Source: an uncultured Luminiphilus sp. (lineage in GTDB: Bacteria; Pseudomonadota; Gammaproteobacteria; Pseudomonadales; Halieaceae). Taken from it: a stretch of 64,000 nt of DNA. Location of the stretch: positions 124,001-188,000 of the forward strand of contig CALSVI010000008.1 in the NCBI GenBank assembly GCA_943840615.1, given 5' to 3'. Numbering within the stretch: position 1 is the first letter of the stretch; the number at the start of each line of letters is the position of its first letter. A model generated the notes under the pieces. It was not told the DNA's origin, ran no database searches, and saw only the letters and a list, made by a program, of their open reading frames with translations. Position numbers and translations under genes: made by a program. Below are positions 26,657 to 43,932 of the stretch, in pieces.

Positions 26657-26659
26657 TAA
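26187..26659 (+). CDS. Lys/Ala-rich histone H1-like (AlgP-type) DNA-binding protein, frame breaks in repeats
   Basis: The protein is built from tandem units close to K-K-A-P-A-K-K-K-A-A-A-K, like the C-terminal tails of AlgP/histone-H1-like bacterial proteins that bind and condense DNA. A strong ribosome site (AGGAGGG) precedes the ATG at 26187. The DNA repeat breaks frame around 26325-26365, where the protein briefly reads LRQEEGQLRRSS, and again at about 26538, where one base is missing and the frame turns Arg-rich. Restoring the base lets the AK repeats run to the TAA at 26657-26659. Repeat units suit polymerase slippage as well as sequencing error, so real unit number is uncertain. A terminator follows. 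No other domain is recognisable. Confidence 0.8.
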
Positions 26660-26697
26660 ATTATTTTGGCGCCACGTTTGGGAGTGGCATCCAACAA

Positions 26698-26725
26698 TAA
26701 AGCCGGCCTTTGGGCCGGCTTTTTT
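26698..26725 (+). terminator. Intrinsic terminator after the histone-like gene
   Basis: An AAGCCGGCC / GGCCGGCTT inverted repeat with a four-base loop (TTTG) is followed by a run of T at 26720-26725. This is a strong GC stem with U-tract, about 40 bp past the stop at 26659. It ends transcripts coming from adk or the histone-like gene before the divergent accessory region begins. Confidence 0.9.
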
Positions 26726-26807
26726 ATGGATTGTGTGAAATGAAGTTACCGGCACTAGTTGGCGTGGCGCAAATGAGGCTGAGGGCATCGATAGGGGGGC
26801 GGTATTA

Positions 26808-27716
26808 GTGGCTGTGAACCCCATTCTTTATCACTACCCAATGTCGCCCTATTCAGAAAAGGTACGCCTGGCGATGGGGCTCAATAATCAGGCCTGGACT
26901 TCAGTTGTCGTCCCGGCTCAACCTCCGAGGCGCTCGCTGGATGATCTGGTCGGTGGTTATCGTCGAATTCCCGTGCTTCAAATCGGAGCCCAATTTTATT
27001 GCGACTCACAATTGGCTTTTGAGGCCTTGTCCGGCACGCATTCCGATGTCGGCGCTCTCGATGCTGATGATGAGGCACTGCGTCGTTGGGCAGAGGAGGA
27101 GATTTTCTTTGCGGTGATCGCGGCAGCCCCTCCGCTAAAGGTATTAAAATATTTGTTGGGGCAGCTAGGCCTGGTCGGCATTGCAAGATTTGTCCGAGAT
27201 CGCTCGCGAATGATGCGAGATGCCACAGTGACAGTGAAAGCGTCTGCTGTGGCTGCTGCGGGCATTGCGGAATATGTTTTTCATGTTGACCGATTGCTTT
27301 CTGCACGGCCCTATCTGTCTGGTTCGCATCCCGGCTATCTTGATCTGTGTTGCTACCACCCTTTATGGATGGCTCTTGCGGTCGATCGAGGTGGCGCCGC
27401 GGACTGGCCATTGAGGGTTCAAGAGTGGATCACTCACATGGGTGAGCTATCACACGGGGCCGCAGCTAGCGCCTCACGCCGTTCAATTGCCGAAGCTATT
27501 ACGAGCGATCAGGTTGAGATTTCGGGGGAAGTCAGCATGCCTCATCATTACGGCGAGACAGTGGCGGTCGCGCCGTTAGATTATGCGCGTGATGAGACGA
27601 TCGGCGAATTGATCATGTTGAATGATGAGCGCATCGTGATTCGGCGGCGCTTCGATACGGAACATCCTATTTATCTACATTTTCCGCGACGAGGTTTTGA
27701 AATCAGGGGCCGCTAG
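26808..27716 (+). CDS. Glutathione S-transferase family protein with C-terminal extension
   Basis: The N-terminal thioredoxin-like domain reads ILYHYPMSPYSEKVRLAMG and then the glutathione-binding region RRIPVLQIGAQFYCDSQ. An alpha-helical GST C-terminal domain follows to about residue 225. A further 70-80 residues end with DERIVIRRRFDTEHPIYLHFPRRGFEI, which is not usual for GSTs and reads like a small beta-rich domain. Start chosen at GTG 26808; a second GTG lies two codons on. Likely role is conjugation or detoxification, substrate unknown. Convergent with the AraC gene (4 bp overlap). Confidence 0.8.
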   Translation: MAVNPILYHYPMSPYSEKVRLAMGLNNQAWTSVVVPAQPPRRSLDDLVGGYRRIPVLQIGAQFYCDSQLAFEALSGTHSDVGALDADDEALRRWAEEEIFFAVIAAAPPLKVLKYLLGQLGLVGIARFVRDRSRMMRDATVTVKASAVAAAGIAEYVFHVDRLLSARPYLSGSHPGYLDLCCYHPLWMALAVDRGGAADWPLRVQEWITHMGELSHGAAASASRRSIAEAITSDQVEISGEVSMPHHYGETVAVAPLDYARDETIGELIMLNDERIVIRRRFDTEHPIYLHFPRRGFEIRGR

Positions 27717-28744
27717 TTTTCGGAGGTCGAGCTTTTGCCGCGCTGATTTTTTCGCCATTGGATGGGCGACGCTCCGCTCCATTGTATAAACGCACGGCGA
27801 AAGTTGGAGGCGTCATTGAATCCCAATAACAAGGCGATTCGGTCGACGGATAGCTCGTTTTTCCGGAGATAGTGTTTCGCGTGCTTTCGGCGAATCGTAT
27901 CCAGTAGCACCTGAAAGGTGGTGGATTCTTGTTGCAGGCGTCGTCGATAGGTCCGCGGACTGAGGTTGAGCATCCCAGCCATCTGATCGAGCTGAGGGTA
28001 TTGGCCTTGCAGCTTGTTGAGCGCCGCGAGCGTTCGTTCCGCATAGCTGGCAGTGTCAGATAGGTCTGCAAGTAACCTCGCGCATTCTGCGTCATACAGC
28101 GCCCTCAGGGTTGGGTTTGACGTTGGCACAGGTTGTCGCATCAGCGAACCCGGCAGACTCAGGATGGCGTTATCGGCGTTGAATTGAATTTTGTCGCCAA
28201 AGATACGTATCAGCGGCGTTGTGTCTGGTGGGGGCGCATAGGGAAAATGTACCTCCAAGTCCGCAGTTGGCATTTGCAGAAGGTCGGAAATCGTTTTTTG
28301 GGCGGCGGAAAAAATGGCCTCGTGCGAGAATCTTCTCGACAGCGGAGGGGAGTCCAGCGACAGCAGCAAGCCGGCGCGGTCGTTGACGGGATCTTCGTAG
28401 CGGGAGAGCTCTGTATTGCTGCCCGTTAATAGTGGACCGTAACGCACTAGCGTCTCCAACACCTCCACGAGATCTGCGCACGCCATAAAGGTCTGTCCGA
28501 TCACCGCGTGTGCCCCGAGATTCAATTGTTGTCCCACGGCCAGGCCCAATGCTGGGTCACCGGTTGCCATGAGTGCATTGGCGATGATCCGGTCTGCCTC
28601 GTGCTCTTCCACCCTCGCCCCAGGACTGCTCAATGCATCGAGACTGAGGGCGGTTCCCTCGCAGAGCGATGCCATTGAGTATCCTTGTTCCCCGGCCAGC
28701 GCAATAAGGACGAGGAGATATTGACTGGGGATAGACGATTCCAT
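27713..28744 (-). CDS. AraC-family transcriptional regulator
   Basis: This 343-residue regulator has an N-terminal arabinose-binding-like domain (AraC_bd, residues about 20-205) and a C-terminal AraC-type double helix-turn-helix (about 240-335), with LDQMAGMLNLSPRTYRRRLQQ and VDRIALLLGFNDASNFRRAFIQWSG. The ATG at 28742-28744 (MESSIPSQYLL) is chosen; a longer reading would run into the diiron gene's promoter and has no family match. It is divergent from the diiron-ferredoxin-CYP153 operon and is its likely activator. AraC/OruR-type regulators are typical beside CYP153 alkane operons. Confidence 0.88.
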   Translation of the reverse strand: MESSIPSQYLLVLIALAGEQGYSMASLCEGTALSLDALSSPGARVEEHEADRIIANALMATGDPALGLAVGQQLNLGAHAVIGQTFMACADLVEVLETLVRYGPLLTGSNTELSRYEDPVNDRAGLLLSLDSPPLSRRFSHEAIFSAAQKTISDLLQMPTADLEVHFPYAPPPDTTPLIRIFGDKIQFNADNAILSLPGSLMRQPVPTSNPTLRALYDAECARLLADLSDTASYAERTLAALNKLQGQYPQLDQMAGMLNLSPRTYRRRLQQESTTFQVLLDTIRRKHAKHYLRKNELSVDRIALLLGFNDASNFRRAFIQWSGASPIQWRKNQRGKSSTSEN

Positions 28745-28749
28745 CACGC

Positions 28750-28778
28750 TATTTGGCCATAAATGACCTTTATTTGGC
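28750..28778. promoter_or_regulatory. Candidate AraC-type direct-repeat operator
   Basis: TATTTGGC occurs at 28750-28757 and again at 28771-28778, a centre spacing of 21 bp (two helical turns) in the same orientation. This is the spacing expected of two AraC-family half-sites on one face of DNA. It lies in the 102 bp gap between the AraC gene and the diiron gene. Assignment is by pattern only. Confidence 0.5.
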
Positions 28779-28846
28779 AAGGTAGCACCTTGAGCGGTCG
28801 CTTCGAGGACGAGAAGATAGCGTTCAAGGAAAAAGGAGAGGTCGAC

Positions 28847-30025
28847 ATGAAGATTGCTTGGCGTGATGAGACACCCCGAAAAATTCAGCAGTTCCCCGGC
28901 GCGGATTATCCCTCCACGAACCCGGATCTCGAAGATGTGTTGACGAGCCGCGACGTAGATCATGTCGCGCAAATTTTCCAGACACCGCTGACGGGTTCCT
29001 ACAATTGGGACTATTCGGTGCAGGACGACCGCATCAAAAAACTTTACGAGTTGGGCAAGCAGTTAAATTGGGACCCGCAGATGGACATCGACTGGGACCG
29101 TCCCTGGCCTGAAGAAGAGCGGCAGGCAGAGCTGATGAATCTGCACGATTACCCTCCTTATCTCGCCTTGTCGGATAAAGAGCGGGACGAGTTCTGGCTG
29201 CATATGAACGCTTGGTCGTTGTCGCAATTCTTGCACGGAGAGCAGGGGGCGCTGCTGGTAGCCAGTCAGCTGTGTTCCTGCGCGCCTACCTTCAACGCGA
29301 AACTCTACGCCGCCTCACAGACATTCGACGAGGCACGCCATGTTGAGGTGTTCAATCAATATATCCAGAAGCGAATTGGGCTGATGTACCCCATCAATAC
29401 GCATCTAAATAGCATCATCGACAAGATTCTCACCGATCCGCGCTGGGACCTTAAATTTATCGGTATGCAGATTGTCATTGAGGGGCTGGCGCTGTCGGCC
29501 TTCAACACCACTCGCGAGACCACGCCTGATCCTGTGTTGAAAGATATTGTGTATCTGGTCACCCGCGACGAGGCCCGACATGTGACTTTTGGGGTGAATT
29601 ATCTCGAGGAGTTTGTGCAAACCTTGACAGAAGAGGAGCGTGAGGAGCGAGCGTTGTTTGCCTTTGAGGCCTGCGCAATCAGCCGAGAGAGACTGGTAGC
29701 GACCGATGTGTTCCGTCATTTCGGTTGGGATGTCGAGGAGAGCCGACGCAAGGTGCTCGATGGGTTTGTCATGTCGACCTTTAGAAATCTGCTCTTTCAG
29801 CGAGTCGTGCCCAACCTTCGACGAATTGGGTTGCTGACTGAATCGGTGCGCCCTAAATTCGAGGAGCTAGGGATTCTGGAATATGAAGCGATGACTGACG
29901 ACGGCGATATCGATTGGAATAAGCTTGAGCGACCACTCGATATTACTGAGGCCCAGAGTCACGAGCAGAGCATGCTCGCAGCGTTCCACGAGGCCTTTGA
30001 GGCGGATCAGGCGGTGGCAGGTTAA
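28847..30025 (+). CDS. Ferritin-like diiron oxygenase/oxidase
   Basis: A 392-residue all-helical protein with a full carboxylate-bridged diiron ligand set: Glu132 (HGEQGA), Glu162 and His165 (FDEARH), Glu212 (IVIEGL), Glu242 and His245 (RDEARH). This E / ExxH / E / ExxH layout is that of ribonucleotide-reductase-R2-like and AurF-like ferritin-fold oxidases. The ATG at 28847 is chosen for the AAAAGGAGAG ribosome site; more N-terminal readings lack similarity. It is first gene of an operon with a [2Fe-2S] ferredoxin and a CYP153-type P450. Substrate is unknown; oxidation or desaturation of an alkyl compound is an inference from the neighbours. Confidence 0.85.
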   Translation: MKIAWRDETPRKIQQFPGADYPSTNPDLEDVLTSRDVDHVAQIFQTPLTGSYNWDYSVQDDRIKKLYELGKQLNWDPQMDIDWDRPWPEEERQAELMNLHDYPPYLALSDKERDEFWLHMNAWSLSQFLHGEQGALLVASQLCSCAPTFNAKLYAASQTFDEARHVEVFNQYIQKRIGLMYPINTHLNSIIDKILTDPRWDLKFIGMQIVIEGLALSAFNTTRETTPDPVLKDIVYLVTRDEARHVTFGVNYLEEFVQTLTEEEREERALFAFEACAISRERLVATDVFRHFGWDVEESRRKVLDGFVMSTFRNLLFQRVVPNLRRIGLLTESVRPKFEELGILEYEAMTDDGDIDWNKLERPLDITEAQSHEQSMLAAFHEAFEADQAVAG

Positions 30026-30116
30026 ATCCGGTGGTGATAGCCTCCCGAAGCTGCGATGCGCCATATAGCCAAGGCGGATCTGAGTAATAGAAATGACTAG
30101 AGGGATATAACAGTTC

Positions 30117-30431
30117 ATGACGGTGATCACGTACATACAGCATGATGGTTCCGAGAGGATGGTTGATGCCGATGCGGGCCTCTCGCTAATGGAGACGGCG
30201 CTTAAGCACGACATCCCGGGCATCGATGCCGATTGTGGAGGTGGCGCAATCTGCGGCACCTGTCATTGTTTTGTCGAGGTTTCCGGGGAGCTACCGGCGC
30301 CTGATCCGCAGGAGACTGCGATGCTCGGACTGCGTCCGGATCGTGCCGAGAACTCCCGCCTTGCCTGCCAAATTGTTATCTCAGCCGGCATGTCCGACGT
30401 GACGGTAAGGCTGCCTGAGTTTCAGATGTAA
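30117..30431 (+). CDS. [2Fe-2S] ferredoxin
   Basis: This is an adrenodoxin/putidaredoxin-type ferredoxin of 104 residues. Cluster cysteines are Cys40, Cys46, Cys49 (C-x5-C-x2-C in CGGGAICGTC) and Cys84 (LACQI). An additional Cys51 sits near the cluster. It lies between the diiron gene (91 bp) and the CYP153 gene (52 bp) and should deliver electrons to the P450 and possibly the diiron protein. No ferredoxin reductase gene is nearby. Confidence 0.93.
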   Translation: MTVITYIQHDGSERMVDADAGLSLMETALKHDIPGIDADCGGGAICGTCHCFVEVSGELPAPDPQETAMLGLRPDRAENSRLACQIVISAGMSDVTVRLPEFQM

Positions 30432-30483
30432 CCGTATAGTGAGCGTTGCATTGCAGCCATAACTACATGAAAAGGTTGATTTT

Positions 30484-31743
30484 ATGAATATGCCAATAGG
30501 GGCATCCGTACCCAACTACAGCGGTATGTCATTGGAGGAACTTGATGTCTCCGATCCACGGATGTTTCAGTACGACTATTGGCACGCATTGTTTGCCCGG
30601 CTGCGCGAAGAATGCCCCGTCCATTTTCAGGCAGACAGCCCTGCGGGCTCGTTTTGGTCGGTAACGCGTTACGAGGATATTGTCGCGATTGAATGCGACA
30701 CCGAGGCCTTCTCTTCAGCGCCCGCTATTTCTATGTTGGATCCCGAGCCCGACATGATTCTGCGGATGTTCATCGCAATGGACCCGCCTGAGCATGATGA
30801 TCAGCGGCGTGCGGTACATCATGTCGTCGCGCCCCGAAATTTGCAGGAATTTGAGACGCTAATCCGCGAGCGGACGGTCGAGGTGCTGGAGGCGCTACCG
30901 GAGAACGAGCCATTTGATTGGGTGAAGCTTGTCAGCCGAGATTTGACGACGAAAATGTTGGCGACCTTGTTTGATTACCCGTGGGACGAGCGAAACAGCC
31001 TCACGGAGTGGTCCGACATGTTTACCTCTGACGTTAGGCTCACCGGAGGCGAGGGTGCGACCCGTGAGGTCATTATTGAACACATCACAGCATGCCTGCA
31101 GCGTTTCACGGAACTCTGGCACGAGCGTAAAGGGGACGGAAAAGAGACCTTCGATCTGATTCGTATGCTTCAAGCGGATCCCAATACAGAGAACATGGTG
31201 GATGACCCCCTCACGTATATGGGAAACATCATGCTGCTGATTGTGGGCGGCAATGACACCACCCGGAACTCAATGTCTGGAGGGGTGGTTTTTCTCAATC
31301 AGTTCCCTGATGAAATGACGAAGGTTCGTCAGAATCCGGATCTTATCCCCTCGATGGTTTCGGAAATTATCCGCTACCAGACCCCCCTGCCGCACATGCG
31401 GCGAACTGCGACGCGAGACGTAGAATTCGCTGGAAAGCGCATCGCCAAAGGCGAAAAAGTCGTTCTCTGGTATGTGTCGGGAAACTATGATGAATCAGTG
31501 ATTGAGCGGCCAAATGACTTTTGGATCGACCGACCAAGTGTGCGAAACCACCTTTCTTTTGGGGCAGGTATTCACCGCTGCATGGGTAACCGCTTGGCTG
31601 AAATGCAATTGCGGATTCTCTGGGAGGAAGTGCTCAAGCGCTTTGAGACGATCGAGTTGGCGGGGGAGCCCCAGAGAACCTGTAACCTCTTTATTCGGGG
31701 GTTTACCCACCTTCCAGTGCGCGTCACCCGATTTCGGTCCTAA
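30484..31743 (+). CDS. Cytochrome P450, CYP153-like alkane hydroxylase
   Basis: CYP153 enzymes hydroxylate the terminal carbon of medium-chain alkanes and fatty acids. The 419-residue protein has the I-helix GGNDTT (255-260), the ExxR motif EIIR (294-297) and the heme loop FGAGIHRCMGNRL with ligand Cys366. Segments typical of CYP153 are LLIVGGNDTTRNSM and the C-terminal LPVRVTRF. It is soluble (no membrane anchor). It forms an operon with the upstream ferredoxin and diiron genes. CYP153 subfamily assignment is from memory of the family pattern and is not a database result. Confidence 0.9.
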   Translation: MNMPIGASVPNYSGMSLEELDVSDPRMFQYDYWHALFARLREECPVHFQADSPAGSFWSVTRYEDIVAIECDTEAFSSAPAISMLDPEPDMILRMFIAMDPPEHDDQRRAVHHVVAPRNLQEFETLIRERTVEVLEALPENEPFDWVKLVSRDLTTKMLATLFDYPWDERNSLTEWSDMFTSDVRLTGGEGATREVIIEHITACLQRFTELWHERKGDGKETFDLIRMLQADPNTENMVDDPLTYMGNIMLLIVGGNDTTRNSMSGGVVFLNQFPDEMTKVRQNPDLIPSMVSEIIRYQTPLPHMRRTATRDVEFAGKRIAKGEKVVLWYVSGNYDESVIERPNDFWIDRPSVRNHLSFGAGIHRCMGNRLAEMQLRILWEEVLKRFETIELAGEPQRTCNLFIRGFTHLPVRVTRFRS

Positions 31744-32577: not shown

Positions 32578-33291
32578 ATGCGGCCGGAGGAGAGCAAGGT
32601 GATGAGGGCAGGGCCGCTTCATCGGCAACGACGAGTGAGGCATTGGCACCGCTGGGTTGCCATGGTGACCTCCTGTCAATTGCTCCTGTGGACGCTGAGC
32701 GGACTGTATTTCGCGTTTATCGATATCGACTATGTGCGTGGGCATCAATTTAAAGCGGCGCCCGAGTCGACGCAGTTTGACCTCTCGCTGCTGCAGGTGA
32801 CTGGGATATCGGCGAGCAAGATCGTGATTACCGAGCGACGCCCCAATGAGACGGTACTGGGCATCTATCGCGACGACAAAATTGAATGGCGCGACGATAA
32901 GGGGCTCCCGCTGCTGCCACTGAGTGGTGACGAGGCTCTGGCTGTCGGGACCGCGGGGACTGTCATGTCCTTGGATCGCTTCGAGTGGGTCGATCGTGAA
33001 GTCGCCGGCAGCGAGTATCGGGGTGCGCCGCTGCCGCTATGGCGCCTCTGGGAGTCCGCCAATCCTGATCGCGTTGCTTATCTAGACGCCATGTCCGGTG
33101 AAGTCGTCTCAGTGCGCCACGAGGCTTGGCGGTGGTGGGACTTTTTATGGTCGCTGCACATCATGAGCTACGACGACCGCGACACCATCGGGACGTGGTT
33201 GCTGAGGATCTTTTCGGTACTGGCTTTAACGACCGCCGTTTTGGGACTATGGCTATTCCGTGATACCCGACGTGTGAAGCAGGATCAGTAG
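32578..33291 (+). CDS. PepSY-domain membrane protein
   Basis: The 237-residue protein has two membrane helices (about 28-48 and 205-228) flanking a periplasmic PepSY region, with ISASKIVITERRPNETVLGIY and VAYLDAMSGEVVSV. It matches PepSY-associated TM proteins, whose members include iron-uptake linked reductases and peptidase regulators. The start at 32578 abuts the DUF429 stop but has no ribosome site; the ATG at 32602 has GGAGGAG upstream and may be the real start. Convergent with the MerT-like gene (7 bp overlap). Confidence 0.75.
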   Translation: MRPEESKVMRAGPLHRQRRVRHWHRWVAMVTSCQLLLWTLSGLYFAFIDIDYVRGHQFKAAPESTQFDLSLLQVTGISASKIVITERRPNETVLGIYRDDKIEWRDDKGLPLLPLSGDEALAVGTAGTVMSLDRFEWVDREVAGSEYRGAPLPLWRLWESANPDRVAYLDAMSGEVVSVRHEAWRWWDFLWSLHIMSYDDRDTIGTWLLRIFSVLALTTAVLGLWLFRDTRRVKQDQ

Positions 33292-33665
33292 AACAGCATT
33301 ACCCAAAGGTAGGCGAAAAATAGGCCGCACAGGTAAGCCGCCCAGGCCAGTGATAGCAGCCACGCGTTGATCCGGCGCAGGCGTTGGCATGCCTCTGCCT
33401 TAATCGGGTCAACCGGACAGGGTGCGCTGCGTTGCTGCCACCATAGCAGGCTGCTGAGTGTCATCAGCAGGCCGGACAGGACAAACAACACATCTTTGTG
33501 ACCGGATAGCCACATGATGCCGGGAATAGCTGATGTGAGGCCTGCCATCACCGCTCCAGCACCCACTGAAATCAGCAGGGCAGGGAGAGCGCAGCACAGT
33601 AATGTAGAGGCACTGCCAAACAGCGCCAGCGTGGGCGCGATGGTATCGCGCCAATCGCCTCTCAC
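33285..33665 (-). CDS. MerT/MerC-like metal transport membrane protein
   Basis: This 126-residue membrane protein has three or four helices. A vicinal Cys pair lies in the first helix (STLLCCALPALL), and two further cysteines follow in PCPVDPIKAEAC. This is the pattern of mercuric transport proteins MerT/MerC. The metal here could be mercury or copper. It is the last gene of the CsoR operon and overlaps the HMA gene as ATGA. Confidence 0.68.
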   Translation of the reverse strand: MRGDWRDTIAPTLALFGSASTLLCCALPALLISVGAGAVMAGLTSAIPGIMWLSGHKDVLFVLSGLLMTLSSLLWWQQRSAPCPVDPIKAEACQRLRRINAWLLSLAWAAYLCGLFFAYLWVMLFY

Positions 33666-34183
33666 GATACGTCGCCCAGTGCCGCTTTGCCTCGTCGAAC
33701 ATCGGCGACCCGGTAGCCAGCCTGCATCGCAAGTTCTGCGATGGCCTCATCGCTGAGTGATGCGCCCGGCTTTAGCACCAGACTCAATGCTTTAGTATCG
33801 AGGTCCACATACATTGCTGCGACTTCATCACGTTTACCGAAGATCTTATTCATAGCCAGTGCGCAGAAGTCGCAGACCACGCCTAGCACGTCTGCGACGA
33901 TCGGTTCTCCACCCCCTGACAGAGCGGTCTCGATGGCGTCGGTCACGGTGAGCATCGCAATAGTATCGGTGGCCTCTGGGGCGGCGCCGTCTGGGCTGCC
34001 GGTATGCCCTTCATGATGATGCCCGGCGTCTGCGTGATCGTGCTGTGCGTGTGGCGAATCACTGTCTGCGCTGTCAGGGCTGTGTCCGGAGTGTTGGCTT
34101 TGGACGCTGGTGTTCTGCGCCGCCGCGGCGGCTGACAGTAGGGCGACGACAGCAATGGAAACGATATTGATGTGTAGGCGCAT
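33662..34183 (-). CDS. Periplasmic His-rich heavy-metal-associated protein
   Basis: A signal peptide (about residues 1-22) precedes a His/Asp-rich linker (HSGH, HAQHDHADAGHHHEGH) and a C-terminal HMA-like domain with CDFC (Cys104, Cys107) and AELAMQAGYRVADVRRG. The layout resembles MerP-like metal chaperones with an added His-rich metal buffer. It is within the CsoR operon, directly upstream of the MerT-like gene, so a metal hand-over to that membrane protein is likely. Confidence 0.75.
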   Translation of the reverse strand: MRLHINIVSIAVVALLSAAAAAQNTSVQSQHSGHSPDSADSDSPHAQHDHADAGHHHEGHTGSPDGAAPEATDTIAMLTVTDAIETALSGGGEPIVADVLGVVCDFCALAMNKIFGKRDEVAAMYVDLDTKALSLVLKPGASLSDEAIAELAMQAGYRVADVRRGKAALGDVS

Positions 34184-34200
34184 AACTATGTCTCCTTAGG

Positions 34201-34848
34201 TTAAAAACGATACGTAAAGTTGAACAGGGGCTGCTTGGCAGTCAGGTTGTAGCCCGCCTCAAGCAGGAGTGGGCCTTTAAAGAGTCTGATTAATGGCGTG
34301 GTGGTCACGGTATCTTCTCCCTCTGGGCGATGATCAATCTCTAGCATCAGCCAGGTATGAAGATCGCCGGTGTCCCCGACGTAAGGGGCGAAGCCCAGTC
34401 GAGCGGCTTGCGAGAACTGGTCTCCAAAGCGACCGGCGTCGAGATAGCGAGAACGATAGCCCGCGAAGAGCGAACGGGTCTCCCAGTCAGCCATCACGCC
34501 TCCATGAATCGCGAAATCATCCTCGAGCGGGTTTTGATTGATGCCGGCGGCGAGGCCGGCGCCGGCATGAAGATACAGATTTCCTTGATAGTCGCTACCA
34601 AACCAGCGCTTCGCTAACCAGGTCGGGTGAATCGAATAAAGAGCATAGTCTGCATCCCGGTTCACCTCGACGCGAGGGCCAATCGACCAATTTGAGGCGG
34701 GGGAATAATGCACCAGCAAAGAGGTGGATTGGCGATCTGATTCTTCGATGATGGTCCATCCGCCAGCATATGAGACGGGACGCGCTAGGGTGGGTTGGCC
34801 AATCAGTCCACTCGTCACGAGCAGCAACACGGCCAGTCCTCGCATCAT
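34201..34848 (-). CDS. Predicted outer-membrane beta-barrel protein
   Basis: A signal peptide (about residues 1-22) is followed by alternating hydrophobic and polar stretches ending in the C-terminal aromatic NFTYRF, typical of outer-membrane barrels. The 215-residue length suits an 8- to 10-strand barrel. No known family was recognised. It overlaps csoR by ATGA, so it is in the metal operon and may help metal export or envelope protection. Confidence 0.7.
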   Translation of the reverse strand: MMRGLAVLLLVTSGLIGQPTLARPVSYAGGWTIIEESDRQSTSLLVHYSPASNWSIGPRVEVNRDADYALYSIHPTWLAKRWFGSDYQGNLYLHAGAGLAAGINQNPLEDDFAIHGGVMADWETRSLFAGYRSRYLDAGRFGDQFSQAARLGFAPYVGDTGDLHTWLMLEIDHRPEGEDTVTTTPLIRLFKGPLLLEAGYNLTAKQPLFNFTYRF

Positions 34849-35120
34849 TTTTTTCGGCCAGTGAGAATTGAGACCAGTTCGGTCACCTTTTCTCTGCGCT
34901 CGGTTGCTCCGCCATCTTCCAGTGCGTGTTGCACGCAGGTGTCAACGTGATCATCGATAATCAGCGCCTCAAGACTGCTCAGGGCGGAGCGGGCCGCCTG
35001 CACCTGTCTCACGACGTCGATGCAGTAACGATCCTCTGCGACCATTTTACGAACCGCACTGATCTGGCCACCAATTCGGGCGAGTCTGGCATCGGCTTTG
35101 CGTTGTGTTTCGTCTCTCAT
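34845..35120 (-). CDS. csoR: CsoR/FrmR-family metal-sensing repressor
   Basis: This 91-residue all-helical repressor has the CsoR metal ligands Cys33, His58 and Cys62 (YCIDVV; DDHVDTC), the C-H-x3-C pattern seen in Cu(I) sensors. It starts MRDETQRKADARLARIGGQISAVRKM, the family dimer helix. It is the first gene of a four-gene operon and should repress it until copper (or another soft metal) binds. Two palindromes just upstream are its likely operators. Confidence 0.9.
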   Translation of the reverse strand: MRDETQRKADARLARIGGQISAVRKMVAEDRYCIDVVRQVQAARSALSSLEALIIDDHVDTCVQHALEDGGATERREKVTELVSILTGRKK

Positions 35121-35913: not shown

Positions 35914-37149
35914 TCAGCCGGGTTGATTGGCCTGGGTTTGCTCATTGAGCGGCGAAGAGAGTCGCAGCACAACCAGGGCGCTGGCAGCGGCCAATACCGA
36001 CATGCCGATGAAGGCCGAAACATAGTGGCCTTGCCACTCCCGTACTAATGCAATGGTTTGTGTACCCAAGGCGCCGAACAGTGTGTCAATCAAAACCACG
36101 ACAGCAAGAATGCGGCCGTAATGGGGGCCGCTGTAATGCGCGGCAACTAGAATTTGGATGCACGTAAAAGCGCCGCTGAATCCCACGCCCGCGAGCAGGG
36201 CATAGGAGTAAAGAAGTACCGTGTCGGTGGCGGTCATCTGGCTGAGCAGCACAAGAGAAACGGCGAGCAGCATCACGGCGCACGCCATTACGCGATGTAG
36301 ATTAAAGCGGTCTGATAACAGTCCGAAAGCCAGCTTTCCGATCACTGAAGAGCCAAAAAACAGACTGAAAACGGAAGGCAAAAGCGACCGATCCAGGCCG
36401 ACATCTCGCGCCAGAAAGATAGACTGATGCTGCGTCAGCGCGATGATGATAAACCAGAGGCTTCCGGTGGTAAAAACGATGGCGTAGAACCGGCGTTCAA
36501 CCAATGCCGACAGCAGGGTGACTGATGGATGAGTCGCAACAGGGGGCGAGGCGGCCCGCTGTGGAGAGCGACGTCCGTCTCGCAGCAGCAGCCACGCGCT
36601 GCCCAGCATCAATAGACCTACGCCAAGCCCTGCGTAAAGCACCGTTTGCCGCCATCCAAGATGTTCCAGGCCATTGCCGACTAACAAGGGGAAGACGGCG
36701 CCGCCCAGACTCGAGGCCATGAGGAGAATGCCCGTTGCCCGGCCCCGACCGGCGTCGAACCAGCTAGTGAGCATCACCATGTTCGAAACCAGTCCGCAGA
36801 GAGACAGTGCCAGTCCCAATAGGGCATAGACGGCAACCAGTTGCCATAGTGACTCGGTGGCGGAGTAGGCCATCAGGCCGAGGCTCAGTAGCAGACTGCC
36901 GATAGCAATGATGGCCCGCGATGAATAACGGTCCAAAAGCCAGCCAGCCGGCGGGGAGGTTAAAGCGCCCACCAAGAAAAATATGGTGGCAGGTAGGGTG
37001 ACTTCGCTCTCTTTCCACCCGAACGTTTCCATCAGTTCGGGGTACAGTAGGGGAAGTGTATGGAGAGTAACGCCGTTCGATGCCATGTAGACAAAGAACA
37101 AGCCGCTCAGCACGGCCCAGCGTCGGTACGGCTCCTTACCCTCATTCAT
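35914..37149 (-). CDS. Major facilitator superfamily transporter
   Basis: A 12-helix MFS permease of about 411 residues. The loop 2-3 motif reads GWLLDRYSSRAII (a variant of G-x-L-x-D-R-x-G-R) and the second half has GLLSDRFNLHRVM. It resembles oxalate/formate- or monocarboxylate-type MFS members; substrate unknown. The ATG at 37149 (MNEGKEPYRRW) is chosen over longer readings. It is convergent with the thioesterase and divergent from the FAD monooxygenase. Confidence 0.85.
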   Translation of the reverse strand: MNEGKEPYRRWAVLSGLFFVYMASNGVTLHTLPLLYPELMETFGWKESEVTLPATIFFLVGALTSPPAGWLLDRYSSRAIIAIGSLLLSLGLMAYSATESLWQLVAVYALLGLALSLCGLVSNMVMLTSWFDAGRGRATGILLMASSLGGAVFPLLVGNGLEHLGWRQTVLYAGLGVGLLMLGSAWLLLRDGRRSPQRAASPPVATHPSVTLLSALVERRFYAIVFTTGSLWFIIIALTQHQSIFLARDVGLDRSLLPSVFSLFFGSSVIGKLAFGLLSDRFNLHRVMACAVMLLAVSLVLLSQMTATDTVLLYSYALLAGVGFSGAFTCIQILVAAHYSGPHYGRILAVVVLIDTLFGALGTQTIALVREWQGHYVSAFIGMSVLAAASALVVLRLSSPLNEQTQANQPG

Positions 37150-37340
37150 ATCGCGATGCTTCGTCGTCAAGTGTCGTGACAGTACACCACTGGCCATTGG
37201 CTGGGAATCTGATAAATGTCGACGTGACCTTGTGCGAGTCGCTCGAGAATATAAAGCCGCCTATTGCGACGGATAAGTCGATGCGGCCGCTGTTAAACTG
37301 AGACGCTGACAATAGCAATGAATCGAGTGCGGGGTTTGCG

Positions 37341-38516
37341 GTGACGACTCAACAGGTTGATGTAGGCATTATTGGATCCGGTATTGCTGGCGCATCGCTG
37401 GCGGCGGCGCTGGCAGACACCGGATTACGGGTCGCCCTGCTCGATCGCCGCAAGGGGCCGCTAGACACTGCGCGAGGTGACCACATTCAGCCGAACTTAC
37501 AGCCGGTGCTGGCGCGATGGGGCGTGCTGGATCGGCTTCAGGCGGCGGGCGCCGAGCAGCGCGTCGGCACGCGCTGGTTCGATGCCGCAGGAGAGCATAT
37601 CGTTACGGTCCCTGTTCCCGAGCACGAGCGTTGCGCGTCCTCGTTTTTGTTTCTAAATCACGAGCAAATTGGAGACATACTGCTAGCTCGGGCCTGCGAA
37701 GGTGACGCGATCAACATCGACGGTGTATCGGAATGGTCGCTGGAGCGTGGCAGGGGTGCTTGGCGGATTGCCTGGGAGAGTGAGGCGCAGTCAGGAGTAG
37801 TGACCTGCACCGTTTTGGTGGGCGCCGATGGCACCGCCTCGGCGGTGCGCCACCGCCTCGACATTGGCCTCAGTCGGCATCGCTATCAGTACCCCATCGC
37901 AGTGCTGTACGGTCGGCAACACCCGGTGCCTGAATTGAGAACCTTGGACGTGTATCTCGCGAAGCAACGGATGGTGTCGATGATCCCGCGGACCGGCGGA
38001 GATACGAAAGTCGGATTTCCAGTTTCGCCAGAGGAGTTGCCCTTTTGGCGGAGTGAGCCGGCTGCTGCGTTGAGAGAACGGCTGGCAGAATGGTGCCCTC
38101 AGGTTGAATTCGAGTCACTGGAGTTTGGTGCCGTGTACCCTCCCGTCTCACAACAAAGTGAGCCGTATGAGGGAGAGGGTGCGGTTGCGCTGATCGGCGA
38201 TGCGCGTCATGCAATGCACCCCGCGCGGAGTATGGGAATGAACACCTGTTTTCGTGTCGCCGATCAGCTTGCCGGATTGCTTGGTACACTTGAATCAGGC
38301 TTCTCGGAGCGGGAAGCGTTGCCGTTGCTGTCTCGCTTTGAGATGCAGTTCAGCGAGGAGTTGGCGCCTCGTCTGGCTGAGAACCATGCGGCGGGGTTGC
38401 AGATGGACACGGTCGACGGCGATGGATTTGTCGCGCTGGCGGCGCAATTGAGTGCCGCGGCAGCTGACCCGGCCATTTTGCAAGCGATGGCACTCAAGGC
38501 GGCGGGGTTGCGCTGA
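37341..38516 (+). CDS. FAD-dependent monooxygenase (UbiH/PHBH fold)
   Basis: The 391-residue flavoprotein has the GxGxxG of the FAD-binding fold in VGIIGSGIAGASLAAALADTG, the DG motif LVGADGTASAVRHRL, and the GD motif ALIGDARHAMHPARSMGMN. This is the group A flavin monooxygenase pattern (ubiquinone hydroxylases, PHBH, geranylgeranyl reductases). Start is GTG at 37341. It heads a co-directional set with an ATP-grasp enzyme, a P450 and a Rieske oxygenase and likely works on the same substrate. It could also be a halogenase- or reductase-like member; the sequence alone does not decide. Confidence 0.85.
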   Translation: MTTQQVDVGIIGSGIAGASLAAALADTGLRVALLDRRKGPLDTARGDHIQPNLQPVLARWGVLDRLQAAGAEQRVGTRWFDAAGEHIVTVPVPEHERCASSFLFLNHEQIGDILLARACEGDAINIDGVSEWSLERGRGAWRIAWESEAQSGVVTCTVLVGADGTASAVRHRLDIGLSRHRYQYPIAVLYGRQHPVPELRTLDVYLAKQRMVSMIPRTGGDTKVGFPVSPEELPFWRSEPAAALRERLAEWCPQVEFESLEFGAVYPPVSQQSEPYEGEGAVALIGDARHAMHPARSMGMNTCFRVADQLAGLLGTLESGFSEREALPLLSRFEMQFSEELAPRLAENHAAGLQMDTVDGDGFVALAAQLSAAAADPAILQAMALKAAGLR

Positions 38517-38582
38517 TTCGCTGGGCCCTTTTGCTCAATGTTCAGGGCGAAACTGCTTGGGAAGCGCACACATTGAAGGAAG

Positions 38583-39887
38583 GTGATTGTGAAAGTCGGT
38601 AGCTTTGTTCCGGAGCAGTTAGCATCGGTGTTTTATGCGATGGCGGGAGACGATTGCTCCCTTCACCATGATCTAGATAGCTTGACTCCCAAGCAGCAGA
38701 TCGATCATCAAGAAAATCAGATCCTGACCTGTGCGCTTCAAGTCGCATTAACCGGTTTGGGTAAAGCGAATGATTACGTGGCACTGGGTGCGCCTTTTGC
38801 GGAGCCCGCGTGGCACAACCTGTTGACTCATTACAGCGAGATGTTCACCCAGATGGGACTCGAATCTATTCCGAGTGAACATTGGCAGTTTCATCCGCTT
38901 GATGGCTATTACGAGGCGGCTGCCGCTGCAATGCCGAAGGCTGACCTGACGAATCTCTATATGATCAGCGGCAGTAATATGCCGCTCCACCAGAATGTGA
39001 ACGCTTTGGGGGTCAGCCGCAATGTGAACTCCAAATTACACTTTGCGCTGCACGCCCCGGCAGCAGGTATTCCTGTGCCTCAGACCGAGATTTACAGCAA
39101 GGGCGCCATTCGGGCCGGCGCCGCTGATGCGTTGTTTGCCGCGTTTCCAGATGGTGTGATGGTGAAGCTACTGGGGTTGGCGGGCTCACGAAATGTATTT
39201 GCTGTGGGTTCGGTGACGGACTGTCTCGAGCAGGTCGCGGAATATGACGACGGCGTGGAAATACTCCTGCAGGAAAAACTAGATGTGAACCACTGGCAGG
39301 AGATGACCGTTGACCTGACCATTACGCCCGATGACATCAGAATTAGTAACGTCCGAAAGATTTTATTTGCGGGCGGCAAGTGGGTGGGTAATTATCTCTC
39401 GCCGGAGCTCATTGTGCCCGATGCGCACCGCGAGGTGCTGCTTCAGGTCGGCGCCTATGCGCGCCAGCAGGGTCATGTCGCTTTAGAGGGCATTAATTGC
39501 GGTATCGACTACTTTATTTCTGGCGATGACGTCATCGTCACGGAGATTAATGCGCGCTGGACGGGGGGGCTTTTCCCGGCAGAGTTTCTGCGCCGCCTGC
39601 AGATCGATAGCCCGGCGATCGCCTTTTTTGACATGGTGCCTTGCGCGCACCGTGACAACATGCTGGCCTTCCAGCGCGAGCATCTGTTTCCAGCTTCTCA
39701 GGCGGCCTTTTCCTATGTGCCGATGGGTTTTACGCCCTTCGCTATGGAGATTGACGGCGCAGAGCGTTATTTTGTCTGGCAGGTGGTGGTGGGGGACTTT
39801 GCCGCGTTTGTCGAGGCGAAAGATCGAGCACTGCCACAGGGCGCGTTACCCACCGCGAATCTCATTTTAGAGGAGGCACTATCATGA
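38583..39887 (+). CDS. ATP-grasp family ligase-like protein
   Basis: This 434-residue protein has an ATP-grasp C-terminal half: a nucleotide-binding lysine segment DGVMVKLLGLAGSRNVF, LLQEKLDVNHWQEMTVDL, and the metal site EINARWTGGLFPAEFL (Glu321, Asn323). The N-terminal half (1-150) is a pre-ATP-grasp type domain with no clear match. ATP-grasp enzymes activate carboxylates as acylphosphates and join them to amines or thiols. The GTG at 38583 or 38589 is the start; AAGGAAGG precedes it. The stop overlaps the P450 start as ATGA, so it is tightly linked to that enzyme. Substrates cannot be read from sequence. Confidence 0.78.
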   Translation: MIVKVGSFVPEQLASVFYAMAGDDCSLHHDLDSLTPKQQIDHQENQILTCALQVALTGLGKANDYVALGAPFAEPAWHNLLTHYSEMFTQMGLESIPSEHWQFHPLDGYYEAAAAAMPKADLTNLYMISGSNMPLHQNVNALGVSRNVNSKLHFALHAPAAGIPVPQTEIYSKGAIRAGAADALFAAFPDGVMVKLLGLAGSRNVFAVGSVTDCLEQVAEYDDGVEILLQEKLDVNHWQEMTVDLTITPDDIRISNVRKILFAGGKWVGNYLSPELIVPDAHREVLLQVGAYARQQGHVALEGINCGIDYFISGDDVIVTEINARWTGGLFPAEFLRRLQIDSPAIAFFDMVPCAHRDNMLAFQREHLFPASQAAFSYVPMGFTPFAMEIDGAERYFVWQVVVGDFAAFVEAKDRALPQGALPTANLILEEALS

Positions 39888-41128
39888 GCCGTGTTGACTT
39901 GGCCGAGTTAGATTTCTTTAGCGCTGAAGTACAGGAATGTCCTTTTCACGTCTACCGCCAACTACAGGACGAGGCGCCGGTATGGCAGATGCCGGGAACC
40001 AACGTTTTTGTGGTCACTCGCTACAACGATATCCGGGAGGTGATCCGCGATCCTGGGCGGTTTTCCAATAATTTCAGCGCCTTACTTAACGCGGGCTCCT
40101 CGAATAAGGAGGTGAGCGCGATTTATGAGCAAGGCTACGAAATGGTGGAGACGCTGCTCACTCAGGATCCGCCTCGGCATCGGGTTTACCGCAATCTGGT
40201 AAACAAGGTTTTTTCGAATAAGCGGATTGAGGGAATGCGCCCCTTTATCGAGACGATGACTGAGGAGCTGATTGACCAGTGGATCGACGAGGGAGAAGTT
40301 GATTTACTCAATCGCCTTTGTGTGCCCCTTCCGATCTATGTGATCGCCGATCAGCTGGGAGTGCCCCGTTCCGAGCTCACTCTGCTTAAGAAGTGGTCCG
40401 ATGCCTCTGCTTCCCGGTTGGGGCAATTAGCGAACGAGCAGCAACAACTTGAGAATGCCAGAGATATTGTCGAGTTCCAGCACTATTTTGCCGACCTGAT
40501 TGATCGGAAAAGAGAGCAGCCCGAAGACAATATTATTTCTGATCTGGCGAATAATACGATCGACGAGGGTCGCTTACTGACAAAACCCGAGATCCTGGGC
40601 ATGGTTCAGCAGATTCTCGTCGCGGGTAACGAAACCTCGACTAACGCCATCGCGGGAGGCGTGGTGTTGCTGATTCAAAACCCCGAAGAGCAGGCGAAGT
40701 TGCGCGCTAATCCAGACTTGATTCCCGGTGCGGTGGAGGAAATTCTGCGGCTGGAGACCCCAACGGCGGGCATGTGGCGGAGAGTGACTGAGGACGCAGC
40801 CGTGGGGGGCGTCGACATTCCGGAGGGGTCATTCCTCATGGTGCGTTTTGCCGCCGGTAATCGTGACGAGTCGATTTTTCCCTGCAGTGGCGCCATGCAG
40901 GTAGAGCGGGACAATGCTGATAGTCATATGGCATTTGGTCAGGGAACCCATTTTTGTCTGGGCGCGCAGTTAGCGCGAACTGAGCTGCAAATTGCGCTAA
41001 CGACACTGCTCCGACGCACGGATAATTGGGGACTGGTGGAAGGCAAAAATACGCTTGAGCACCACCCCAACGTGCTGCTGCGCGGTCTGATGGACCTGCA
41101 TATTTCTTTCGATAAGGCTACTGTATAA
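39884..41128 (+). CDS. Cytochrome P450 (soluble class I)
   Basis: A 414-residue P450 with the I-helix AGNETST (247-253), ExxR motif EILR (286-289) and heme loop FGQGTHFCLGAQL with ligand Cys358. It differs from the CYP153 enzyme at 30.5 kb. Class I P450s need a ferredoxin, and only the one at 30.1 kb is visible in the window. Overlaps the ATP-grasp gene (ATGA) and is followed after 41 bp by the Rieske gene. Confidence 0.92.
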   Translation: MSRVDLAELDFFSAEVQECPFHVYRQLQDEAPVWQMPGTNVFVVTRYNDIREVIRDPGRFSNNFSALLNAGSSNKEVSAIYEQGYEMVETLLTQDPPRHRVYRNLVNKVFSNKRIEGMRPFIETMTEELIDQWIDEGEVDLLNRLCVPLPIYVIADQLGVPRSELTLLKKWSDASASRLGQLANEQQQLENARDIVEFQHYFADLIDRKREQPEDNIISDLANNTIDEGRLLTKPEILGMVQQILVAGNETSTNAIAGGVVLLIQNPEEQAKLRANPDLIPGAVEEILRLETPTAGMWRRVTEDAAVGGVDIPEGSFLMVRFAAGNRDESIFPCSGAMQVERDNADSHMAFGQGTHFCLGAQLARTELQIALTTLLRRTDNWGLVEGKNTLEHHPNVLLRGLMDLHISFDKATV

Positions 41129-41169
41129 GTCGACTCTGATTGCAATGTTGTTATGAGGTGGAGTGATCT

Positions 41170-42528
41170 ATGAATAAGCCGGTGTTTCCTAGCTATCAGG
41201 ACTTATTGGACGAGGAAGCCGTGTCGATTCCTGAGGCGTTGAGATCTGACACCCGACCAGACATTGCCAATAACCTGATTGCGACAGATGTGTGGACCGA
41301 CCGCGGTGTGTTTGAAAAAGAGGTTGAGCATCTTTGGCCAAAAGTCTGGCAGATGGCGTGTCGCGAGACGGTGTTGCAGAAGGCGGGGGATTACTTTGTT
41401 TATGACATTACCCGCTACTCCATACTATTGGTTCGCACTGAGAGCGGCGAGCTCAAGGGCTTTCACAATTCCTGCCTGCATCGGGGGCGAGCGCTTAAAT
41501 CAGGGAAGGGAACCAGTCGTGAGTTGCGCTGTCCCTATCATGGTTTTTGCTGGCACCTCGATGGCCGTTTTAAAGAGGCTTACTGCGACTGGGAGTTTGA
41601 TGAAGCCAATCTGGCTGAATTAACCCTTCCCGAGGTGCAGGTGACGACTTGGGGTGGCTGGGTGATGGTTAACCTGGACCCCGAGGCGCAGCCCTTTGAG
41701 CAATACGCCTCGGTGTTGAGCGAGCATTTTCAGCGTTGGACCCCGGAAGAGCGCTACGTGTCTTTGCATGTGGAGAAAAAGATCCGCTGCAACTGGAAAA
41801 TCGCGATGGAGGCGTTCATTGAGTCTTACCACGCGATACAGACTCATCCGCAGATCCTGTCTTTTACGGGTGGCGACAACTCTCAGTACGACGTATTTGG
41901 CGATCATCTGAGCAGAACGATCACCGCGCAGGGCATTCCAAACCCGGGGCAGGCCGATCGCTACAGCGTGCAGGAATCTGTCGAGGCCATGACCGGCCCG
42001 GGTGGTTTCGAGCAGGCATTGGAACTGACGGGTCTGGCTGCAGATGCTATCAGCTCTCGGCAGGCGATCGGCGCTGTGCGCAAAGAACAGTTCGCTGAAT
42101 TTATGGATCCGGAGAGACTGGCGACGGTCACTGATGCCGAGACGATGGATTCAATTTTGTACCTGGTATTCCCCAACTTTGCCCCGTGGGGTGGCTTCCA
42201 GAGCCAGATCACCTATCGGTATCGACCAGACGGCATGAACGCTGACGGCTGCATCATGGATATCTATTTATTGGATGCTTATCCCTCCGATCAGCCCAGA
42301 CCACCCGACGCGCAAACCATTCGCCTAGACTACGATCAAAAATATGCGGAAGCAGAAGCGCTGGGGCTTCTCGGAGCGCTATTTGATCAAGATGCCAATA
42401 ATTTGCCGGAGGTGCAGAAAGGCTTGATGGCTTCCAAAACGCGGAGGGCAATCACCGCCAGCTATCAGGAGCTTCGTATTCGGCATTTCCACGAGACGCT
42501 GGCAACGTATTTGCAGTCAGGCGACTGA
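41170..42528 (+). CDS. Rieske non-heme iron oxygenase, alpha subunit
   Basis: The 452-residue protein has the Rieske cluster motif Cys102-x-His104 and Cys121-x2-His124 (SCLHRGR; CPYHGFCW). The mononuclear iron site shows ESYHAIQTHPQI (His221, His226) and a distal Asp in LFDQDANNLPEVQKG near residue 407. It lacks partner beta-subunit, ferredoxin or reductase genes nearby, as in alpha-only (alpha3-type) oxygenases such as demethylases. Last gene of the FAD/ATP-grasp/P450/Rieske set. Confidence 0.92.
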   Translation: MNKPVFPSYQDLLDEEAVSIPEALRSDTRPDIANNLIATDVWTDRGVFEKEVEHLWPKVWQMACRETVLQKAGDYFVYDITRYSILLVRTESGELKGFHNSCLHRGRALKSGKGTSRELRCPYHGFCWHLDGRFKEAYCDWEFDEANLAELTLPEVQVTTWGGWVMVNLDPEAQPFEQYASVLSEHFQRWTPEERYVSLHVEKKIRCNWKIAMEAFIESYHAIQTHPQILSFTGGDNSQYDVFGDHLSRTITAQGIPNPGQADRYSVQESVEAMTGPGGFEQALELTGLAADAISSRQAIGAVRKEQFAEFMDPERLATVTDAETMDSILYLVFPNFAPWGGFQSQITYRYRPDGMNADGCIMDIYLLDAYPSDQPRPPDAQTIRLDYDQKYAEAEALGLLGALFDQDANNLPEVQKGLMASKTRRAITASYQELRIRHFHETLATYLQSGD

Positions 42529-42582
42529 GCGCTCTCTGGACTCGGCTGACTGCAAAGCGTCAAGCCTGACGAGGAGTCGCGC

Positions 42583-43269
42583 TCAATAGCTGAGCGCCAT
42601 GCTTGCCCGGCCGTCTTTCTCGGTCGCCCGAGCGAAGCTGGGTAAAGCCTTCATGCGCTCAACCCACTCGATACAGCGGGGGTGTTGTGTCTCGTTGATC
42701 ACGCCGCGCTCGGCCCCCACGATCATATTGTAGGCGATCAGGAAATCCGCCGCCGTGAGTGTCTCTCCCCCGAACCAAGGCGCACTGGCCAAATCGGCTT
42801 CGGCCAAAGTGAGCAATCTATTCAGGCGCGGCTGGATGAATAAATTGTTGAGTCCCTGAACGTAGAGTTTGACGAAAGGTCTCATAAAAAAGGGCAGTCG
42901 TTTTTGCGAAATCGTTGTCACCGTTGCCATGAGCTGTAGGGGCATCATGGAGCCTTGGGCGGCGTGCCACCAAAACAAGTAGCGTGCTCGGTGAGGCGAG
43001 CCTACGGCCGGCCTGAGTGTCTGGTCCGGGATGCCATCCAAGATATATTCCATAATGGCACTGCTCTCCGCGAGGGCTAAGCCTCCTTCAGTGACCACTG
43101 GCGCAGTGCCCAGCGGAGAGAGCGCCTTGTAGTCGTCCGGCGCGGCCATCGTTTTGGCGTCGCGTGAATACACCTTCAAGTCGAAGGGTGTGCCCAGCTC
43201 CTCGAGCATCCATAGCACGCGGAAAGACTGGGAGTATTCAAGGTGGTGAAGCGTGAGTGTATCGGTCAT
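42583..43269 (-). CDS. Glutathione S-transferase
   Basis: This 228-residue GST has an N-terminal domain starting LTLHHLEYSQSFRVLWMLEELG (Ser in YSQS as candidate catalytic residue), the cis-Pro region LGTAPVV, and ESSAIMEYIL for glutathione binding. The helical C-terminal domain ends with TAADFLIAYNMI. Typical length. It is convergent with the Rieske gene and may serve detoxification around the oxygenase cluster. Confidence 0.9.
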   Translation of the reverse strand: MTDTLTLHHLEYSQSFRVLWMLEELGTPFDLKVYSRDAKTMAAPDDYKALSPLGTAPVVTEGGLALAESSAIMEYILDGIPDQTLRPAVGSPHRARYLFWWHAAQGSMMPLQLMATVTTISQKRLPFFMRPFVKLYVQGLNNLFIQPRLNRLLTLAEADLASAPWFGGETLTAADFLIAYNMIVGAERGVINETQHPRCIEWVERMKALPSFARATEKDGRASMALSY

Positions 43270-43440: not shown

Positions 43441-43806
43441 TCAGAATATCTCGTGTTCTTCGGTCATGAAAATTCGAGATCGGCTGAAATCAATGAACTG
43501 CGCCTCGTCCTCTATCAGGCGCGTCTGTGCGTCGATCCCTTCAGGAGACGACATGCCTATTTCGAGCGCCGTCGAGTCCTGCCACCAGACCTCGGTGATC
43601 CCGTCGTAGGGGTCGAGCAGCCCTCGGCTCTCGATCATCAGGGCATTCAGTTCGGGCAGTACCGTATGGCTCTGGACGTAACGACAAGCACCAATCGCAG
43701 TAGCGACTGACTTCACAAGCGGTCCGTGTTCTTCCTGCCAATAGCGATAGAACGCGTCACTGTCGACGTCGTCGCGCTTGCGCAGGCAGTAAACAAGTTT
43801 GATCAT
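43441..43806 (-). CDS. EthD-domain protein
   Basis: A 121-residue alpha/beta-barrel protein. EthD family landmarks: MIKLVYCLRKRDDVDSDAFYRYWQEEHGPLV near the start and the central CRYVQSH. EthD is needed in ethyl tert-butyl ether degradation; most members have unknown roles, often next to oxygenases or hydrolases. Start at ATG 43806: longer readings run back into the tRNA gene and are rejected. About 170 bp between this and the GST show nothing recognisable. Confidence 0.85.
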   Translation of the reverse strand: MIKLVYCLRKRDDVDSDAFYRYWQEEHGPLVKSVATAIGACRYVQSHTVLPELNALMIESRGLLDPYDGITEVWWQDSTALEIGMSSPEGIDAQTRLIEDEAQFIDFSRSRIFMTEEHEIF

Positions 43807-43856
43807 GTCTTCGCGCTCAGTTGTCCGGACCGCCCCATGGTGTGTGCGCGCCGCAA

Positions 43857-43932
43857 TGGCCTCCCCGCCAGGACTCGAACCTGGAATCACCGCTTAGGAG
43901 GCGGTAGTTATATCCTGTTTAACTACAGGGAG
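43857..43932 (-). tRNA. tRNA-Arg (anticodon CCT)
   Basis: The complementary strand folds as a cloverleaf: acceptor CTCCCTG/CGGGGAG, anticodon stem ACCGC/GCGGT with loop CTCCTAA (anticodon CCT), and T arm CCAGG-TTCGAGT-CCTGG. The 3' CCA is encoded. It reads AGG codons. It sits at the junction between the accessory oxygenase region and selU-selD. Confidence 0.93.

Follow-up and report, generated by a model that had tools for sequence, protein, structure and literature searches.

An ATP-dependent ligase encoded together with a Rieske oxygenase is known from the oxidation of aniline and 1-naphthylamine (AtdA1-A5 and NpaA1-A5), where, according to the available part of PMC11335346, a glutamine-synthetase-like ligase, a GAT-like enzyme, a two-component Rieske dioxygenase and a reductase are involved and the conjugate is the oxygenase substrate. 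In marine gammaproteobacteria, cytochrome P450 genes have been reported to be far more abundant in postulated K-strategists (PMC4391266, available part), and in other oxygenase-rich marine clades the breakdown of algal metabolites has been suspected (PMC8371827, available part). Here we analyse a block of four genes within a 64,000-nucleotide stretch of DNA from an uncultured Luminiphilus sp. of the Halieaceae (GenBank assembly GCA_943840615.1, contig CALSVI010000008.1, positions 124,001 to 188,000 of the forward strand; hereafter the window). The block encodes a flavin adenine dinucleotide (FAD) monooxygenase, a predicted ATP-grasp ligase, a cytochrome P450 (P450) and a Rieske oxygenase. The last three form a tight unit, hereafter the triad, which the FAD monooxygenase often accompanies but from which it can be separated.

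The logic of a ligase encoded with a Rieske oxygenase, on which a first-pass annotation of this DNA had based an analogy with aniline catabolism, is found in the block; the components, however, differ from those described in the available part of PMC11335346. Whereas the aniline ligase is glutamine-synthetase-like, that of the block has a predicted ATP-grasp fold; the GAT-like enzyme, the second Rieske component and the reductase have no counterpart among the block's genes, and the P450 and the FAD monooxygenase are additions. By analogy the block may work like the aniline system, but it is not a member of it. The available parts of PMC4391266, PMC8371827 and PMC11335346 do not mention a ligase-P450-Rieske unit, and no published description of one was found in the literature as judged by titles and abstract openings.

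The ligase, P450 and Rieske genes form a tight unit

Four open reading frames (ORFs) on the plus strand span 37341-42528 of the window, and their coordinates bear out the co-directional arrangement proposed in the first-pass annotation, with spacings of 66 bp, an ATGA overlap and 41 bp. The FAD monooxygenase gene (37341-38516; 391 amino acids, GTG start; Pfam FAD_binding_3) is followed by the ligase gene (38589-39887), by the P450 gene (39884-41128; 414 amino acids, ATG start; Pfam p450), whose start overlaps the ligase stop, and by the gene for an alpha-only Rieske oxygenase (41170-42528; 452 amino acids, ATG start; Pfam Rieske and Ring_hydroxyl_A). These Pfam families agree with the three oxygenase classes named previously for the first, third and fourth genes. 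The ligase ORF is listed from 38583 (434 amino acids, GTG start); translation probably begins at the in-frame GTG at 38589 rather than at 38583, because the MKVGS of its relatives begins there. Across 18 aligned sequences, 61-92% identical to the window protein, the ligase frame stays open and is therefore more than a chance ORF.

A survey of 140 Halieaceae genomes found the ligase in 20, and the order ligase-P450-Rieske lies on one contig in 16 of these, although in some of them a contig end truncates the first or the last gene. In two of the remaining four (G043 and G060) the genes are divided between contigs where a break would be expected; G032 retains the order, with frames broken at contig ends, and in G033 a fragment of the ligase start adjoins a fragment of the Rieske end. 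At all 18 junctions read, the ligase frame runs 1-4 bases into that of the P450 (ATGA or GTGA at 15, one base at 3; those of G032 and G033 were left out). Among these junctions are those of G049 and of the two genomes of genus g5, whose neighbourhoods are different. Two genera carry the triad, in three distinct neighbourhoods. P450 orthologues, which we picked at an E-value below 1e-200 together with a 70%-identical contig-cut piece in G060, were present in 19 of the 20 ligase genomes and in 0 of the 120 others.

The FAD monooxygenase was found in 18/20 ligase genomes and 1/120 others; Fisher P values for such co-occurrence ignore shared ancestry and are not to be taken literally. In G049 and G060 its gene lies on another contig with different neighbours on both sides, and G039 has it, together with the gene of a major facilitator superfamily (MFS) transporter, without the ligase. 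The distance from its stop to the ligase start, measurable in 13 cases, is 10-117 bp in six and 726-761 bp in seven; in one of these seven large gaps the insert was identified as an SRAP-family gene (locus L031, 6610-7263). The first-pass annotation had staked its proposal on the four genes being conserved together; comparison of the Halieaceae genomes found that they are, tightly for the triad and more loosely for the FAD monooxygenase.

Unrelated flanking genes are also conserved in the main group of carriers, where a shared neighbourhood is therefore weak evidence by itself. Linkage is argued chiefly from the frame overlap, the three neighbourhoods and the co-occurrence of genes that are not adjacent. 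Among 11 genomes (55 pairs) the distances of the four protein families are correlated (Spearman 0.83-0.94), a result that common descent by itself would produce as well.

The ligase is rare and was found in Halieaceae-type genomes

The 20 genomes matched by the ligase profile belong to 2 of the 28 Halieaceae genera surveyed. Two of the matches are fragmentary (51 residues in G033, and one truncated at a contig end in G494), and many of the surveyed genomes are incomplete bins; among genomes at least 90% complete, 4 of 78 matched. When 398 genomes drawn from the whole phylum were searched at E up to 1e-5, and 293 drawn from the order at E up to 0.01, only the window's genome matched; these draws sample each genus thinly and passed over the remaining known carriers, so that they show the ligase to be rare rather than absent. 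A scan of one genome per species with short exact-type patterns, able to detect no more than close relatives, found 11 loci, and every one bears the title Halieaceae, Luminiphilus or Gammaproteobacteria. No ligase was found outside Halieaceae-type genomes, where coverage is thin and other phyla were not searched by profile. Among 72,556 plasmid records there was no match to the ligase at E 0.01 and none to the FAD monooxygenase at 1e-5; 928 records matched the Rieske protein and 1369 the P450, all below 60% identity, and the annotation near four of these matches (two in Nostoc, one each in Novosphingobium and Rhodococcus) holds no ATP-grasp name, with many genes called 'hypothetical'.

Two carriers have irregular loci. 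In G033 (L041, 2588-3226) ligase residues 3-52 abut Rieske residues 286-449, through internal loss or an assembly error, and in G032 (L040, L078) several frame breaks lie in the block and in neighbouring genes, through decay or sequencing errors.

The ligase is predicted to have an ATP-grasp fold

The window ligase matched nothing in Pfam, NCBIfam or the sequences of the PDB (phmmer, and a profile at E up to 10), and one of 11 relatives reached ATP-grasp_3, at E 0.071. An AlphaFold2 model built from an 11-row alignment had a mean predicted local distance difference test score (pLDDT) of 79.0, and one built from 18 rows a pLDDT of 81.7 and a predicted template modelling score of 0.82. The top PDB folds were 7r8q and 7r8p (SAOUHSC_02373 with ADP) and 8ynd and 8ynq ('ATP-grasp peptide ligase from Streptomyces'). 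On the query, these entries reached a template modelling (TM) score of 0.58-0.63 with the better model, versus 0.41-0.54 for the other chains of the top 50, mostly purine-pathway enzymes and some carboxylases; with the first model the two groups lay closer in TM, and in both models the E-values differ little. SAOUHSC_02373 is the closest predicted fold (TM 0.61-0.63), although it is only 11-12% identical to the ligase and gives no sequence match; we take it to be the Asp-Met ligase called LdmS, and we know of no oxygenase partners for it. The Streptomyces enzyme is second (TM 0.58-0.63), likewise without a sequence match, at 14-16% identity. A viral fold library gave generic ATP-grasp matches only.

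The motifs TEINARWTGG, MxKLLG with the ATP-site lysine, GxDYF and EMTVDLT are present in all 18 rows of the alignment, and we take the first three to be metal-site and ATP-site motifs of ATP-grasp enzymes. The predicted fold and the invariant TEINARWTGG uphold the earlier call of an ATP-grasp enzyme with an intact metal site, which searches against families and PDB sequences could not give. Together, models and motifs support a predicted ATP-grasp fold class for this ligase. Structure comparison, which the first-pass annotation had proposed as a route to the substrate, placed amide-forming ligases as the nearest folds.

The oxygenases and their relatives

The P450 scores 105.8 bits against Pfam p450, and its haem-cysteine loop and I-helix pattern are kept in 10/10 and 9/10 sequences, respectively. 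The Rieske oxygenase exceeds its Pfam cut-off, with the CxH...CxxH cluster and the 2-His-1-carboxylate site in all 12 block proteins. A bridging-glutamate pattern, which glycine-betaine-type oxygenases share, is found in the same 12 proteins and in nine of ten tested paralogues. Assignment of the Rieske protein as glycine betaine monooxygenase GbcA was rejected (NCBIfam equivalog 109.5 bits, cut-off 670). The FAD monooxygenase belongs to class A (FAD_binding_3, 86.9 bits; GxGxxG, DG and GD motifs in 9/9). A betaine lead was not taken up: in G049 the unlinked FAD monooxygenase gene adjoins a GbdR-like regulator (472.3 bits, cut-off 480), whereas in G060 its neighbours are unlike those in G049 and include MttB and dehydrogenase genes.

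The Rieske paralogues that were read, of 42-53% identity and from seven loci, stand in surroundings that look catabolic, where nearby genes by eye resemble acyl-CoA ligase, thiolase-like, DUF35-like and TonB-receptor genes. A Rieske gene adjoins the P450 paralogue in four of eight loci, always with the Rieske gene first. Like the block, P450-Rieske pairs of other Halieaceae genera (L083, L084, L085 and L087) are adjacent (P450 49-56% identical in three, Rieske 40-48% in four); unlike it, they have the Rieske gene first and stand in genomes without a ligase of this family. Pfam RPE65, of carotenoid-cleavage type, was found in 4 of 15 P450- or Rieske-paralogue loci (L072, L084, L089 and L090, from other Halieaceae genera) by a scan that took look-alike genes only.

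Within genus g5 the triad is preceded by genes for an Amidohydro_2 protein, a limonene-epoxide-hydrolase-like protein and another MFS protein, and is followed on the other strand by luciferase-like, short-chain dehydrogenase/reductase and glyoxalase genes. The best matches of both MFS proteins, that of the window and that of g5, are monocarboxylate-type carriers, below cut-offs.

Genes and signals flanking the block

ORFs and Pfam confirm the flanks claimed in the first-pass annotation. Divergent from the FAD monooxygenase lies the MFS transporter gene (35914-37197, minus strand; best NCBIfam match a lactate-type carrier, below cut-off), which is present in 19/140 Halieaceae genomes, 16 of them with the ligase; the rest are G039, G021 and G025, the gene in G025 being cut by a contig end. 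On the other side, a glutathione S-transferase (GST) gene (42583-43269, minus strand) is convergent and possibly accessory; it adjoins the triad in the main clade, and had no match in the 14 genomes with other contexts in a search run without a positive control. Membership of the EthD-domain gene (43441-43890, minus strand; Pfam), present in only part of the main-clade loci, is doubtful. In an empty-site comparison of seven block-free genomes and G049, the thioesterase gene was accompanied by none of the remaining window neighbours in their order.

A hairpin over the Rieske stop codon (42505-42560, plus strand) is a weak candidate for the end of the unit: the region 42505-42575 folds at -29.3 kcal/mol, with 3 of 200 shuffles equally good, no T run follows, and the hairpin is absent from the terminator scan list. 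Neither the promoter scan (3 versus a shuffle mean of 4.6) nor the terminator scan (10 versus 7.6) did better than shuffles. In clusters for ribosomally synthesised and post-translationally modified peptides that have an ATP-grasp ligase, a precursor peptide gene lies next to the ligase gene; in the block, where very short ORFs were not searched systematically, the spacings are 66 bp, an overlap and 41 bp. A defence system was rejected, the four proteins having no PADLOC match at E 0.01.

Further upstream, 27713-31743 holds in a row an AraC-type regulator, an AurF-family oxygenase (Pfam), a small ferredoxin and a second P450; this row is wholly or partly present in relatives (L040, L094, L095, L113 and L114). 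A [2Fe-2S]-type ferredoxin gene at 30117-30431, with an ISC-type profile match below cut-off, is a redox-partner candidate only. Small minus-strand genes at 33285-35120, which the main group keeps next to the block, by eye resemble a metal-response cluster with a CsoR-like repressor. The ORF at 26187-26738 is of low complexity, rich in lysine and alanine, and by eye histone-H1-like.

Discussion

Our leading reading, held tentatively, is that the block is a lineage-restricted Halieaceae module for joining an acid to an amine and for oxidation, most likely serving to take up and degrade an acid from plankton, perhaps a terpenoid or apocarotenoid-like one. The ATP-grasp enzyme would use ATP to activate a carboxylate, which it would join to an amine or amino acid to form an amide; the P450 and the alpha-only Rieske oxygenase would oxidise the conjugate or supply its precursor, the FAD monooxygenase may contribute a further oxidation, and the monocarboxylate-like MFS protein would move the acid. 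Amide formation, the order and direction of these reactions and the class of substrate are what we infer from the genes. The earlier proposal that the ligase tags an acid or amine, which the P450 or Rieske enzyme then oxidises, is supported in part, by the kept motifs and the amide-forming fold neighbours. A bolder form, which we consider possible but doubtful, is that an undescribed, Halieaceae-restricted ATP-grasp family links an acid to an amine and so gives a dedicated P450 and Rieske oxygenase a handle, and that this evolved independently of the glutamine-synthetase-based aniline route.

Several observations weigh against the leading reading. The triad of G049 stands apart from evident breakdown genes, and the main-clade block holds no amidase, CoA ligase or ring-cleavage gene, nor any ferredoxin or reductase gene. 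The fold is a prediction, with identities of 10-16% to its matches and with many ATP-grasp enzymes near-equal in E-value; the RPE65 neighbours come without a base-rate test. The block has frame breaks or losses in G032 and G033 and is thus dispensable in some genomes. Finally, the reading is built on genes and predictions.

The same material can be read as a small biosynthetic cluster: an amide or dipeptide would be assembled by the ligase from metabolites of the cell, modified by the oxygenases and sent out through the MFS protein. The ligase fold, whose nearest predicted neighbours are amino-acid or peptide-type ligases, and the bare setting of the triad in G049 favour such biosynthesis, as do the compact unit, its narrow distribution and a main-clade block without an amide hydrolase. 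Breakdown is favoured, on the other hand, by the catabolic look of the g5 neighbours, and both the loci of the P450 and Rieske relatives and the carrier matches of the two MFS proteins, though these fall below cut-offs, point the same way. We therefore regard biosynthesis as a possible but less favoured explanation, and breakdown as somewhat likelier. It is unlikely that the ligase acts last or performs another ATP-dependent step, such as carboxylation or phosphate transfer, with the oxygenases acting on the free substrate: gene order does not fix reaction order, and PurK, PurD, PurT and biotin-carboxylase-type folds are close in E-value, but the better model gives the ligase-type chains clearly higher TM scores. 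Least probable by far is that the genes are neighbours without a shared pathway, held together by common descent. Most carriers do form one group with general synteny that extends to unrelated flanks; yet the triad persists with overlapping frames in three neighbourhoods, and the FAD monooxygenase co-occurs even where it is unlinked.

The ligase represents a conserved enzyme family, absent by name from Pfam and NCBIfam, whose active-site motifs are preserved, and the triad provides a defined set of proteins for assay. Little is known about how the hosts, marine bacteria, use recalcitrant compounds. If the proposed conjugation is true, the block would be a second, independent way of attaching a handle that makes a small molecule fit for oxygenases.

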